The position numbers and the translations under genes were made by a program. Below are positions 35,361 through 40,596 of a stretch of DNA of 51,078 bases, in pieces (the stretch's first letter is position 1; every line of letters starts with the position of its first letter). The stretch is from Bacteroidia bacterium (GTDB lineage: Bacteria > Bacteroidota > Bacteroidia > J057): positions 1-51,078 of the forward strand of contig JAIBAH010000018.1 in assembly GCA_019695295.1 (NCBI GenBank), read 5' to 3'. The notes beneath the pieces were generated by a model that worked only from the letters and a program-made list of their open reading frames with translations, was not told where the DNA came from and made no database searches.

Positions 35361-36800
35361 ATGGCAGACGATATTCTCTTACAAGAAATCACTTCTCAGA
35401 AATATAAATACGGATTTACAATTGATATTGAGTCAGAACAGGCTCCTCCGGGCCTCAATGAAGAGATTATCCATTTTATTTCTGCGAAAAAGAATGAACC
35501 TGAATGGATGTTGAATTTCAGGCTCAAAGCATATCGTCACTGGCTCACTCTTGAGGAGCCGGATTGGGCGAAAGTGGATTACCCAAAAATTGATTATCAG
35601 TCCATTATCTATTATTCTGCCCCAAAATCCAAAAAACTGAACTCTCTGGACGAAGTAGATCCTGAGATTCTGAAAACCTTTGAAAAATTAGGGATTCCTT
35701 TGGATGAACAAAAATTACTTTCGGGTGTAGCGGTGGATGCAGTAGTAGATTCTGTTTCTGTAAAAACGACTTTTAAAGAAAAACTGGCCGAAAAAGGGGT
35801 GATTTTTTGTTCTTTTTCGGAAGCCGTTCAGGAGCATCCGGAATTAGTAAAGAAATACCTCGGTACAGTAGTGCCCTATAATGACAACTTTTTTGCTACG
35901 CTGAACTGTGCTGTATTTACCGATGGCTCATTCGTCTATATTCCCAAAGGCGTTCGCTGCCCCATGGAGTTATCCACTTATTTCAGGATTAACGAAGCAA
36001 AAACCGGTCAGTTTGAACGTACACTCATCGTGGCGGAAGAAGGAAGCTACGTAAGCTATCTGGAAGGATGTACGGCTCCTATGCGGGACGAAAATCAGCT
36101 TCATGCTGCCGTTGTGGAACTTGTGGCTATGAAAAGTGCTGAAATCAAGTACTCCACCGTTCAGAACTGGTACCCCGGAGATGAAAACGGAAAAGGAGGG
36201 ATTTATAATTTTGTAACCAAAAGAGGAATCTGTAAGGAAGATAACGCCAAAATCTCCTGGACTCAGGTAGAAACCGGCTCTTCCATCACCTGGAAATATC
36301 CTTCTGTAATCCTGAAAGGCGATAATTCAATTGGGGAATTTTACTCTGTAGCAGTAACCAACAATCGTCAGCAGGCCGATACCGGTACAAAAATGCTGCA
36401 TATCGGTAAAAACACCCGTTCTACAATTGTATCCAAGGGAATCTCTGCCGGAAAAAGTCAGAATGCGTACAGAGGACAGGTAAAAATCATGAAATCCGCC
36501 TCCAATGCCCGGAACTTTTCACAGTGTGATTCTCTCCTTATCGGCGACAAATGCGGTGCTCATACTTTTCCTTATATAGAATCGGCTCACTCTTCGGCAA
36601 TCGTTGAGCATGAAGCCACTACTTCCAAAATAGGCGAAGACCAGATATTTTACTGCAATCAGCGCGGAATTGACACCGAACAGGCCGTTTCCCTCATCGT
36701 AAACGGCTTTACCAAAGAGGTACTCAAACAACTTCCAATGGAATTTGCGGTAGAAGCCCAAAAGCTGCTGGCGATTAGTTTGGAGGGGAGTGTGGGGTAA
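35361..36800 (+). CDS. sufB: Fe-S cluster scaffold protein SufB
   Basis: The 479-residue protein is the SufB subunit of the SufBCD scaffold, which assembles Fe-S clusters on ATP hydrolysis. Recognisable segments are [20 protein letters not shown], the core [20 protein letters not shown] with C237 (equivalent to the essential E. coli C254), VQNWYPGD and the C-terminal [20 protein letters not shown]. The beta-helical domain is complete. In Bacteroidota sufB is normally followed at once by sufC; here two unrelated genes (36825-38500) intervene. The last 22 nt of the gene carry the -33 box of a putative internal promoter. Confidence 0.97.
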
Positions 36801-36824: not shown

Positions 36825-37778
36825 ATGATAAAAAGTATAGTCATAAATAATTTTAGATGCTTTGAAAAGGCTTGTTTCAAGGGTTTTAAACAAATAAACC
36901 TAATTGGAGGCCTCAATAATGCCGGAAAAACAGCTTTTCTGGAAGCCGTCTATTTATACAAAGGCTATAACTTTAAGAGTTCACATCTCGCTAATTTATA
37001 TAAATTCAGACATATTAATCAAGATAAGCTAAGGCCAATATTAGAAAGGCAATTTTACAATGATTTGTTTTGGCAACAAAATAATGAATTGACCATTAGT
37101 TTTGAAGAATCTTTCGATGACGATACCGCTTCCCTTCGTTTGTCATTATCGCTAGACAAGGATGGTTTTATAACAGTAGATTCAACAGAAAATAGATTAA
37201 AAAATATTATTAGCACGGTATTCTTGCCTACTGATTACAAACTTTCTTCAATTGACATTGTGAAAGCGTATGACGAAATTGAGATGAAAGGGGAAGAGGA
37301 AATTCTCTTACAAGCATTTCGGGTAATTGACCCTGAAATAGAAAAGGTCCGCTCTTTTGCCAGCAATCCAATTTCATTATATATTAGAAAAAAAGGGGGA
37401 AATTTTTTGCCAATCAATTTTTGGGGAGATGCATTAAACAAAATGGCTTTTTATATTCTTCATATTATTCAAAACAAGGGTGGAATACTGTTAATCGACG
37501 AAATAGAAAACGGCATACATTATACGCATCATTTCGAGTTTTGGAAATCCCTTATTACTTTATGTATTAAATATGACGTTCAGCTATTTGCGACCTCCCA
37601 TAGTCTGGAAATGATAAAAGCCTATAATGAAGTAGCAAAGGAGACCCAAAATGAAGAGATTTGCAATTATTTTGAAATGATAAGGCATGTAAAAACCGGA
37701 GAAATAACTGCAAATGTAATGACAATGGATATGCTTGAATACGAAATTGCTAAAAATCAACCATTTAGAGGAGAGTAA
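36825..37778 (+). CDS. ABC-type AAA ATPase of a two-gene OLD-like ATPase/TOPRIM pair
   Basis: The 317-residue protein has Walker A G29-LNNAGKT-36 in NLIGGLNNAGKTAFLE, a signature-like INFWGDALNKMAFYIL (in the place of the GDGLRR motif of AAA15/AAA21 proteins), Walker B ILLIDEIENGIHY with D225 and E226, and the switch histidine H259 in LFATSHSLEM. This is the order of SMC/RecF-like ATPases in OLD-type systems. No long coiled coil is present between the halves. It ends 2 nt before the TOPRIM gene. ATG 36825 is preferred over TTG 36807. It interrupts the suf operon and is more AT-rich than its flanks (for example 16 G+C in 36841-36900, against 32 in 36661-36720). Confidence 0.82.
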   Translation: MIKSIVINNFRCFEKACFKGFKQINLIGGLNNAGKTAFLEAVYLYKGYNFKSSHLANLYKFRHINQDKLRPILERQFYNDLFWQQNNELTISFEESFDDDTASLRLSLSLDKDGFITVDSTENRLKNIISTVFLPTDYKLSSIDIVKAYDEIEMKGEEEILLQAFRVIDPEIEKVRSFASNPISLYIRKKGGNFLPINFWGDALNKMAFYILHIIQNKGGILLIDEIENGIHYTHHFEFWKSLITLCIKYDVQLFATSHSLEMIKAYNEVAKETQNEEICNYFEMIRHVKTGEITANVMTMDMLEYEIAKNQPFRGE

Positions 37779-37780
37779 TT

Positions 37781-38500
37781 ATGGCAGGAAGCAGGATAAT
37801 CGTTGAGAGCAATAATGATCAATATTTTTTTGATGCGTTGATTCGGTTTCTGGAAAAAGATAATTGTGAAATTCAAAGTACGGAAATTGATTGGGAAGTA
37901 CAAAGCGCAGAAGAAAGCATTGAGAAACCAACGGGTTTGAAAAGAGCAATCCTTTCTACTTTTAATGATATTACAAAAGGGAAATATGACAAAATCGGAA
38001 TAATCTGGGATTTGGACACACTTACAAAAGAAGAAAGAATCCGTCAGTTTAATAATGCCTTTCGCTTGGCAGATGCTGAGAGTTCTTATTCAGTTCAGTT
38101 TACAGAAATGACTGAAACCAATCAATTTGTATCGGTTGTCATAAATGAAGTTTCTGTAGATGTAGCTTGTCACCTCGTAAACTTGGATGGAAAAGGAGAA
38201 ATAGAAGACATTCTGAAAGCTATAAAAACTCAAGATTCACCCATTGCAGATTGTGTGGACAAACTTTTGCCGGAGTGCTTGAATGCGAATCACGAAAAAG
38301 AATTGCGAGAGAAAGATTTAGTCAAATTGTGGATAAATCATTACATTCGCTTTGATACATTGGTAAAGAATAATCGAAATCAGGCGAATACAAAATGGGA
38401 AAACGTAATGAAAAAAAGAAGCGATATTTTTGATTTCGGAAAAGAAGTAAAAGAACTCAGTGAAATCAAAGAATTTCTAAATATGTTTATGAATTCTTAA
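37781..38500 (+). CDS. TOPRIM/DUF3226-like partner of the AAA ATPase
   Basis: The 239-residue protein opens with SRIIVESNNDQYFFDALI, where E9 and D13 fit the first TOPRIM motif (E-G-x-x-D-type), and continues to KIGIIWDLDT with D77 and D79 as the D-x-D metal-binding pair. A conserved-looking ASP/GLU-rich middle and a helical C-terminus (KLWINHYIRFDTLVKNN) follow. DUF3226 proteins of this size typically occur beside AAA15/21 ATPases. By analogy with OLD, GajA and PARIS AriB, it may be a metal-dependent nuclease activated by the ATPase (inference). It is translationally coupled (2-nt gap) and lies 39 nt before sufC. Confidence 0.72.
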   Translation: MAGSRIIVESNNDQYFFDALIRFLEKDNCEIQSTEIDWEVQSAEESIEKPTGLKRAILSTFNDITKGKYDKIGIIWDLDTLTKEERIRQFNNAFRLADAESSYSVQFTEMTETNQFVSVVINEVSVDVACHLVNLDGKGEIEDILKAIKTQDSPIADCVDKLLPECLNANHEKELREKDLVKLWINHYIRFDTLVKNNRNQANTKWENVMKKRSDIFDFGKEVKELSEIKEFLNMFMNS

Positions 38501-38539: not shown

Positions 38540-39289
38540 ATGCTTACAATCAAAGACTTACACGCAGAAATTGACGGAAAGGAAATACTGAAGGGATTGA
38601 ACCTCACAGTAAAGGCGGGGGAAATTCATGCAATCATGGGGCCTAACGGAGCGGGAAAAAGTACGCTTGCTTCTGTACTTGCCGGAAAAGAAGATTATGA
38701 AATTACTGGTGGCTCTGTGGATTTTGACGGGAAAGACCTTCTCGAAATGAGCACCGACGAACGCGCTTGCGAGGGGCTTTTTCTGGCTTTTCAGTATCCT
38801 GTAGAAATACCCGGAGTGAGTATGACCAACTTTTTGCGTACTTCTGTAAACTCTGTACGTAAATACAGAGGCCAGGAAGAAATGTCAGCAGGAGATTTTC
38901 TCAAAATGATGAAAGAAAAACAAAAAGTGGTTGAAATGACGAAAGAACTCACCAACCGCTCTGTAAATGAAGGGTTTTCCGGAGGAGAGAAAAAAAGAAA
39001 CGAAGTATTTCAGATGGCAATGCTTGAACCAAAACTCGCTGTACTCGATGAAACCGATTCCGGGCTGGACATTGACGCTCTCCGAATCGTAGCCAAAGGG
39101 GTAAATGAACTCAGAAATGAGGACAATGCCTTCATCGTAATCACTCACTACCAACGTTTACTTGACTATATCGTACCGGATTTTGTCCATGTACTTTTTG
39201 ATGGCAGAATCGTAAAATCCGGCCCTAAAGAGCTTGCACTTGAACTGGAAGAAAAAGGTTACGACTGGATTAAAGAAGACGTTATTTAA
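38540..39289 (+). CDS. sufC: Fe-S cluster assembly ATPase SufC
   Basis: The 249-residue ABC ATPase has Walker A GPNGAGKST (residues 34-42), the SufC-type signature NEGFSGGEKKRNE and Walker B LAVLDETDSGLDIDAL. Together with YQRLLDYIVPDFVHVL these identify SufC rather than a transporter subunit. It powers the conformational change of SufBCD. The length is standard. It lies 14 nt before sufD. Its separation from sufB by 1.7 kb of unrelated genes is unusual; with the internal promoter, expression may still be possible from both. Confidence 0.97.
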   Translation: MLTIKDLHAEIDGKEILKGLNLTVKAGEIHAIMGPNGAGKSTLASVLAGKEDYEITGGSVDFDGKDLLEMSTDERACEGLFLAFQYPVEIPGVSMTNFLRTSVNSVRKYRGQEEMSAGDFLKMMKEKQKVVEMTKELTNRSVNEGFSGGEKKRNEVFQMAMLEPKLAVLDETDSGLDIDALRIVAKGVNELRNEDNAFIVITHYQRLLDYIVPDFVHVLFDGRIVKSGPKELALELEEKGYDWIKEDVI

Positions 39290-39303: not shown

Positions 39304-40596
39304 ATGAATCAGATACTTAGAGATACAACCAAAGCATTTATCAGTCAGTTTGAGACGGATAAAGAAACCGGATTTGGGGAAGACAAAAGAAAAGAAGCCG
39401 TAAAAATGCTGGAGCAGGCGCTGCTCCCTACTACCAAAACGGAAGCCTGGAAATACACAAGCCTGAAGGCGATTACCTCCAAACGCTATCAGTCTCCTGA
39501 AAATCACGCATCGAGAAACCTCGGCATTTGCTGTATTCCGGAACTTGACGCCCATACAATTCTGTTTGTAAATGGCGCATTTCATTCAGTTTGCCTTTCC
39601 AGCGGGAATGACGAAGCCTTAATCGTGAAATCGTTTGGGGAAATGTCAGAGGAAGAGAGCATTATTGCAGAAAAATACTTTGCGGAAATCAGCGCAAAAG
39701 ATTCCGGTATATTTACCACCCTCAATACCGCCTATAACCCTGAAGGAGTATTTATTTATGTTCCGGCAGGCACGATTATTCATAAGCCGGTTCATATTCA
39801 GCACCTTACCGACAGCAGTATTGATATTGCTTTTCAGCACAGAAATATAATCGTAGTGGGAGAAAATTCCAGCCTGAAAGTGATAGAAACCTATCATGGA
39901 GCCGGTGGAAAAAACACCCTCAGGAATCAGGTAAGCGAAATATTTGTGGCTCAGAACGCAAGTTTTACCGGCATAAAATATCAGAATGAAGGGGATAAAG
40001 CTTCTCATATAGAGCAGTGCAATATCATCCAGAAAGGAAACAGCGTCACTGATTTTTATACCATTTCTCTCAGCGGTGAAATTGTAAGAAATAACCTGAA
40101 TATCCATATCAACGGCGAAAGAGCGCATGCCGGTCTCAAAGGAGGGTATCTTCTCTCCGGAAATCAACATGTTGATAACTATACCGAAGTACATCACATT
40201 ATGCCCAATTGTACGAGCAATGAGCTGTATAAAGGAATCATCGGAGGCGAGGCAACCGCTGTTTTTAACGGAAAAATTCAGGTATATCCGGATGCCCAGA
40301 AAACACAGGCTTACCAATCCAATAAAAGCATTCTGCTTACAGACACAGCCAATGTTTATACAAAGCCTCAGCTGGAAATTTATGCAGATGATGTAAAATG
40401 CTCTCACGGTGCCACAACCGGACAAATCAACGAAGACGCATTATTTTATATGCAGGCAAGAGGAATCTCAAGAGCGGATGCACGCAAACTGTTAGTCTGT
40501 GCTTTTCTCGAAGATACCTTTGAAAGTATCGGAATAGAAGAAGTCCGGAAATATATTCATGCTGCGATACAACAAAAATTAGATATTCAGGGTTAA
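39304..40596 (+). CDS. sufD: Fe-S cluster assembly protein SufD
   Basis: The 430-residue protein shares the beta-helical SufB/SufD domain: TEAWKYTSLKAI near the N-terminus, VPAGTIIHKPVHIQH in the middle and the C-terminal DDVKCSHGATTGQINEDALFY, with C366 and H368 (the latter equivalent to E. coli SufD H360, a cluster or iron ligand). SufD completes the SufBC2D scaffold. It follows sufC by 14 nt and is followed after 29 nt by a small membrane protein instead of the expected sufS. Confidence 0.96.
   Translation: MNQILRDTTKAFISQFETDKETGFGEDKRKEAVKMLEQALLPTTKTEAWKYTSLKAITSKRYQSPENHASRNLGICCIPELDAHTILFVNGAFHSVCLSSGNDEALIVKSFGEMSEEESIIAEKYFAEISAKDSGIFTTLNTAYNPEGVFIYVPAGTIIHKPVHIQHLTDSSIDIAFQHRNIIVVGENSSLKVIETYHGAGGKNTLRNQVSEIFVAQNASFTGIKYQNEGDKASHIEQCNIIQKGNSVTDFYTISLSGEIVRNNLNIHINGERAHAGLKGGYLLSGNQHVDNYTEVHHIMPNCTSNELYKGIIGGEATAVFNGKIQVYPDAQKTQAYQSNKSILLTDTANVYTKPQLEIYADDVKCSHGATTGQINEDALFYMQARGISRADARKLLVCAFLEDTFESIGIEEVRKYIHAAIQQKLDIQG

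Follow-up and report, generated by a model that had tools for sequence, protein, structure and literature searches.

The suf locus and the inserted gene pair

The window, by which we mean the whole stretch of DNA analysed (51,078 nucleotides of contig JAIBAH010000018.1 from a Bacteroidia bacterium), contains a suf operon in which two additional genes lie between sufB and sufC (Table 1). The first encodes an ABC-type ATPase and the second a TOPRIM protein. They are on the same strand and separated by 2 nt, with a stop codon between the two open reading frames; 24 nt lie between the sufB stop and the ATPase start, and 39 nt between the end of the pair and the sufC start. A preliminary description of this DNA had placed an ATPase and a TOPRIM gene 2 nt apart at this position, and its coordinates, the gap and all of the residues that it named were confirmed. 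The retention of the two reading frames as a pair across phyla indicates that they are genuine genes. Since the ATPase gene starts so close behind sufB, the sufB promoter probably drives the pair as well. Strong sigma-70-type promoters inside or before the pair were no more numerous than in shuffled sequence; Bacteroidota promoters differ from the sigma-70 type. No tRNA or structured RNA was found in the window. At positions 1-511, on the minus strand, there is an open reading frame with a short repeated motif (NPHFLTLN-type) that is probably a tandem repeat tract.

Table 1. Genes and predicted functional residues of the suf locus (window positions)
Feature	Position	Strand	Evidence and remarks
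sufB	35361..36800	+	intact; NF008773 1.6e-277; NCBIfam TIGR01980 also matches
AAA_15/AAA_21 ABC-type ATPase, 317 aa from ATG	36825..37778	+	Pfam, PADLOC, fold; presumed sensor/neutraliser
Walker A GLNNAGKT, K35	36909..36932	+	G29, G34, K35 and T36 invariant in 14 aligned ATPases
Walker B D225/E226	37497..37502	+	invariant in 14 aligned ATPases
Switch histidine H259	37599..37601	+	invariant in 14 aligned ATPases
DUF3226 TOPRIM protein, 239 aa	37781..38500	+	Pfam PF11536, PDC-M38B, fold; presumed nuclease effector
TOPRIM E9 and D13	37805..37819	+	invariant in 14 aligned; compare BpOLD E400, E404
TOPRIM DxD, D77/D79	38009..38017	+	invariant in 14 aligned; compare BpOLD D455, D457
TOPRIM E142, candidate metal-B ligand	38204..38206	+	E/D in 14/14; compare BpOLD E508
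TOPRIM K182, candidate match of BpOLD catalytic K562	38324..38326	+	invariant in 14 aligned
sufC	38540..39289	+	intact; TIGR01978 8e-114
sufD	39304..40596	+	intact; TIGR01981 3.4e-81

The ATPase matches the Pfam families AAA_15 (3.6e-13) and AAA_21 (2.7e-11), and among the PADLOC models it scores best with AbiLi (2.9e-44), followed by PDC-M38A (3.9e-42) and then AriA (2.7e-16). RecF is its top match in NCBIfam and also its top PDB match by single-sequence search. The predicted model (pLDDT 81) aligns with PtuA over 280 residues (Z 19.1, rmsd 3.6); the ATPases of retron Eco8 and GajA are likewise among the top fold matches, as are the SMC and Rad50 heads. The alignment from which the conserved ATPase positions were read holds 14 proteins, the window protein among them. 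The protein is a RecF/OLD-type, SMC/RecF-like ATPase with an intact ATP site. When the ATPase was used as the query in a close-protein scan of genome contigs, no match was obtained.

The second protein matches Pfam DUF3226 (PF11536) at 6.2e-12 and 46 bits, above the cut-off of 27 bits, and the PADLOC model PDC-M38B at 2.5e-7 over residues 1-154; a match to AriB is weak (0.0011) and covers residues 6-75 only. Its alignment also comprises 14 proteins including that of the window, drawn from Bacteroidota, Cyanobacteria, Brachyspira and Campylobacterota. The Burkholderia OLD protein (BpOLD) binds its two metals through E400, E404, D455, D457 and E508, with T506, and has K562 as its catalytic lysine (PMC6755086). 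The residue order of the window protein fits this OLD pattern of E, E/D, DxD, E and K. E142 opens a predicted helix (141-148) of the model, and K182 can be equated with K562 by sequence order only, because the model has pLDDT below 50 around it. Two cysteines, C158 and C166 (codons 158 and 166, window 38252-38278), are invariant in 14/14 aligned members.

The TOPRIM model as a whole is of moderate confidence (pLDDT 77). It aligns with Pyrococcus PH0156 over 179 residues (Z 10.2, rmsd 4.4) and with the OLD C-terminal regions 6njv (Z 8.5, rmsd 4.9, 164 residues) and 6nk8 (Z 7.8, rmsd 4.6, 160 residues); the OLD match is a moderate one, as some unrelated alpha/beta folds score equally, over shorter stretches. 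Foldseek gave no match for this model at E<=0.001, its first match being retron Eco2 (E 1.8e-3), whose effector is described as a TOPRIM domain (PMC12405507). A sequence-only search of the PDB with the TOPRIM protein gave chance matches only. Taken with the residues, the model indicates a TOPRIM fold with its metal-binding residues intact; the protein is a putative nuclease. Model, family and residue evidence agree on the OLD/AriA-type ATPase and TOPRIM fold that had been proposed for the pair.

Relatives of the pair and their insertion sites

A scan of genome contigs gave 14 homologous loci, which belong to Bacteroidota, Cyanobacteria, Brachyspira and Campylobacterota. In 13 of them the upstream sequence is complete, and there the ATPase gene always lies immediately upstream of the TOPRIM gene. 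DUF3226 is present in 9 of 396 sampled Bacteroidia genomes, at 11 loci, and at 10 of these an ATPase of the window kind is found just upstream; relatives of the TOPRIM protein by profile A1 occur in 2/396. With an ATPase beside nearly every DUF3226 gene and few carrier genomes, the ATPase-DUF3226 module appears as obligately paired yet rare. The eleventh locus (G326, L101:382-2010) has one 543-codon frame that matches the ATPase profile and, in part, DUF3226, and is possibly a fusion. Pairwise distances among the ATPases correlate with those among the TOPRIM proteins (r=0.73, a value equalled in 0/5000 permutations), a figure that still includes shared ancestry.

The pair has a GC content of 33%, against a window mean of 40% (s.d. 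2.5, windows of pair size). In one congener (G004, with 92% identity in SufB) the gap between sufB and sufC is empty and about 100 nt long. Another congener (G003) has a diverged pair elsewhere, adjoining an enoyl-CoA hydratase gene (TOPRIM 54% and ATPase 48% identical), and a member of another genus of the same family (G011) has the pair at a third location. Downstream of its sufB, G003 (L018, L071) has a DinB-like gene and one that is convergent; its sufC is on another contig, and the suf operon may be split. The empty junction in one relative and the different sites in others point to lateral acquisition of the pair, so that the earlier view of it as an insertion at suf was upheld. We found no convincing target-site duplications, terminal repeats, transposon ends or integrase or recombinase genes near the insert.

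More distant homologous pairs are found in equally varied settings. In a Saprospiraceae MAG the pair separates nqrD from nqrE and so interrupts the Na+-NQR operon (L081:3009-6349); in Chamaesiphon it follows secA, in Runella it follows metX, and in an Arcobacteraceae genome it lies between an exonuclease gene and a gene for an S1-domain (Tex-like) protein. In Acinetobacter (L088:4784-9705) it begins 58 nt after glyS of glyQ-glyS. Close neighbours on either side are seen at about 6 of 11 independent loci, a raw count from which no preference for tight co-directional embedding is claimed. The neighbours are mostly housekeeping genes and not defence islands, and guilt by association is therefore weak. 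Two matches carry a phage or plasmid label: the Acinetobacter record is filed as phage and looks chromosomal, and the 'plasmid' record is a 4.1 Mb sequence named plasmid. Such records give no evidence of phage carriage, and no relatives of the pair were found among the IMG/VR viral contigs.

Comparison with known systems and possible function

All 14 aligned TOPRIM members match both DUF3226 and PDC-M38B, and for this reason the pair can be assigned to the PADLOC type PDC-M38, which is already catalogued, though as a candidate only. Both window proteins match the models of this type and are adjacent in the same order (A the ATPase, B the DUF3226-like protein). No feature was found that separates them from it, and the window copy sits in suf. 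A literature search found no paper naming PDC-M38 or DUF3226.

The closest characterised systems are AbiL and PARIS. AbiL of Lactococcus also consists of two genes (AbiLi and AbiLii/RloB), and AbiLi is the best match of the window ATPase. However, the second window protein is a DUF3226 protein that matches RloB only at E 0.03 and 14.9 bits, against a cut-off of 31.5, and the AbiLii model in PADLOC does not match it; as the partner falls below the RloB cut-off, we rejected AbiL proper. PARIS (AriA and AriB, 'class 4 OLD') likewise has its ATPase and TOPRIM domains on separate genes, but AriA chains in the PDB have 464 aa compared with 317 aa for the window ATPase, the AriB model matches only 1/14 TOPRIM members (weakly and in part), and AbiLi and PDC-M38A far outscore AriA. 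Class 1/2 OLD proteins and GajA of Gabija have the domain pair and active-site pattern in common with the window pair; class 1/2 OLD proteins combine them in one polypeptide, whereas the window has two proteins, and Gabija has the GajB helicase beside GajA, whereas the window pair is flanked by sufB and sufC and lacks a GajB-like helicase. The ATPases of Septu (PtuA) and of retrons resemble the window ATPase in fold, but the partner of PtuA is an HNH protein instead of a TOPRIM protein, and retrons have a reverse transcriptase that the window pair lacks. The compact two-gene unit of the preliminary description is related to AbiL and PARIS and was already listed as PDC-M38.

The family matches, invariant active sites, predicted folds, obligate pairing, patchy spread, low GC content and differing insertion sites together favour, with a probability of roughly 0.7, a self-contained module of the AbiL/PARIS type (PDC-M38) that was acquired horizontally and serves in abortive infection or as a toxin-antitoxin system. 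In PARIS a hexamer of AriA sequesters AriB until a phage protein frees it, AriB being a tRNase (PMC12409363), and AbiLii has been described as a TOPRIM_OLD toxic effector (PMC10440598). By analogy, an oligomer of the window ATPase would hold the TOPRIM protein in an inactive state until a phage signal altered the ATPase, and the freed TOPRIM protein could then cut nucleic acid, either tRNA like AriB or DNA like OLD, such that growth would stop before phage release.

The main caution against a defence role comes from class 5 OLD: Cran1 has its role in the cell cycle of archaea, and no antiviral effect of it was seen (PMC12796447). Together with the RecF matches of the ATPase and the housekeeping neighbours of its homologues, this could suggest an ATPase-nuclease with a task in DNA repair or housekeeping (OLD class 5 or RecF-like) and no part in defence. 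Such a role seems unlikely, given that the family is sparse in Bacteroidia by both profile A1 and DUF3226 and missing from a close congener, that its insertion sites differ, and that the defence models far outscore RecF. It is also quite improbable that the pair is a plain addiction module, in which a TOPRIM toxin and an ATPase antitoxin would maintain themselves with no anti-phage benefit. Published AAA/TOPRIM_OLD pairs did behave as toxin-antitoxin pairs, their toxicity being neutralised in assays, but the authors of that study speculate that their pairs represent abortive phage defence (PMC10440598).

The sufB-sufC junction and the meaning of the location

In order to place the insertion in context, the junction was surveyed in 138 Bacteroidia genomes that have sufB and sufC in order on one contig. 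The two genes are no more than 200 nt apart in 86 of these genomes and 300-6000 nt apart in 49, the window counted. About a third of the surveyed Bacteroidia thus carry extra genes here, mostly non-defence. The 23S rRNA intervening-sequence (IVP, four-helix) proteins account for 19 of 51 scanned junction proteins and are spread over many families; the others include lipases, mannosyltransferase-like membrane proteins, GIY-YIG, DUF4062 and ORF6N. Nearly all junction open reading frames of at least 85 aa (52/55) are co-directional with suf, a bias that would be expected if operon-breaking inserts get lost. In another genus of the same family (G007, L019:4175-5985) a different ATPase-nuclease-like pair ends 3 nt before sufC; its ATPase is closest to PDC-M29A, and its 153-aa protein is weakly PDC-M29B, with a D…ELK motif that is PD-(D/E)xK-like. 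The survey thus describes the sufB-sufC junction as a permissive, recurrent landing site that has received at least two ATPase-nuclease-like pairs, and the presence of our pair there is therefore no evidence of a role in Fe-S biogenesis.

The preliminary description had raised the possibility that the location links the pair to the state of Fe-S assembly, and had stated that finding it at this junction in all relatives, with no defence phenotype, would suggest a housekeeping role in Fe-S assembly; that distribution was not found. Functional coupling, by which the pair would report on or respond to Suf status, could be argued from its place between sufB and sufC, its probable co-transcription and the second pair in G007, but it is most improbable, since close relatives either lack an insert there or have the pair at another site, homologues lie in unrelated operons (in nqr, after glyS, secA or metX), no other member of the family was found at suf, and the junction houses many unrelated genes. 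The position in suf is probably just where the pair landed, incidental and not a functional clue. A more general conjecture is that DUF3226 modules are selected to ride in tightly spaced essential units (suf, nqr, glyQS, secA), where phage transcription shut-off would deplete the ATPase and free the nuclease, so that embedding in a host operon would itself be the sensing principle; we consider this very doubtful.

The pair is likely a defence-type module of a known kind, a catalogued candidate, in an unusual position. That it lies in an essential operon is no ground for reading functional coupling into it; ATPase-DUF3226 modules appear to insert into essential operons and leave them intact. 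The window provides an intact copy of an obligate module that spans several phyla, and a close relative shows the corresponding site cleanly empty. For mutational work, the family, for which we found no published function, now has a defined active site.
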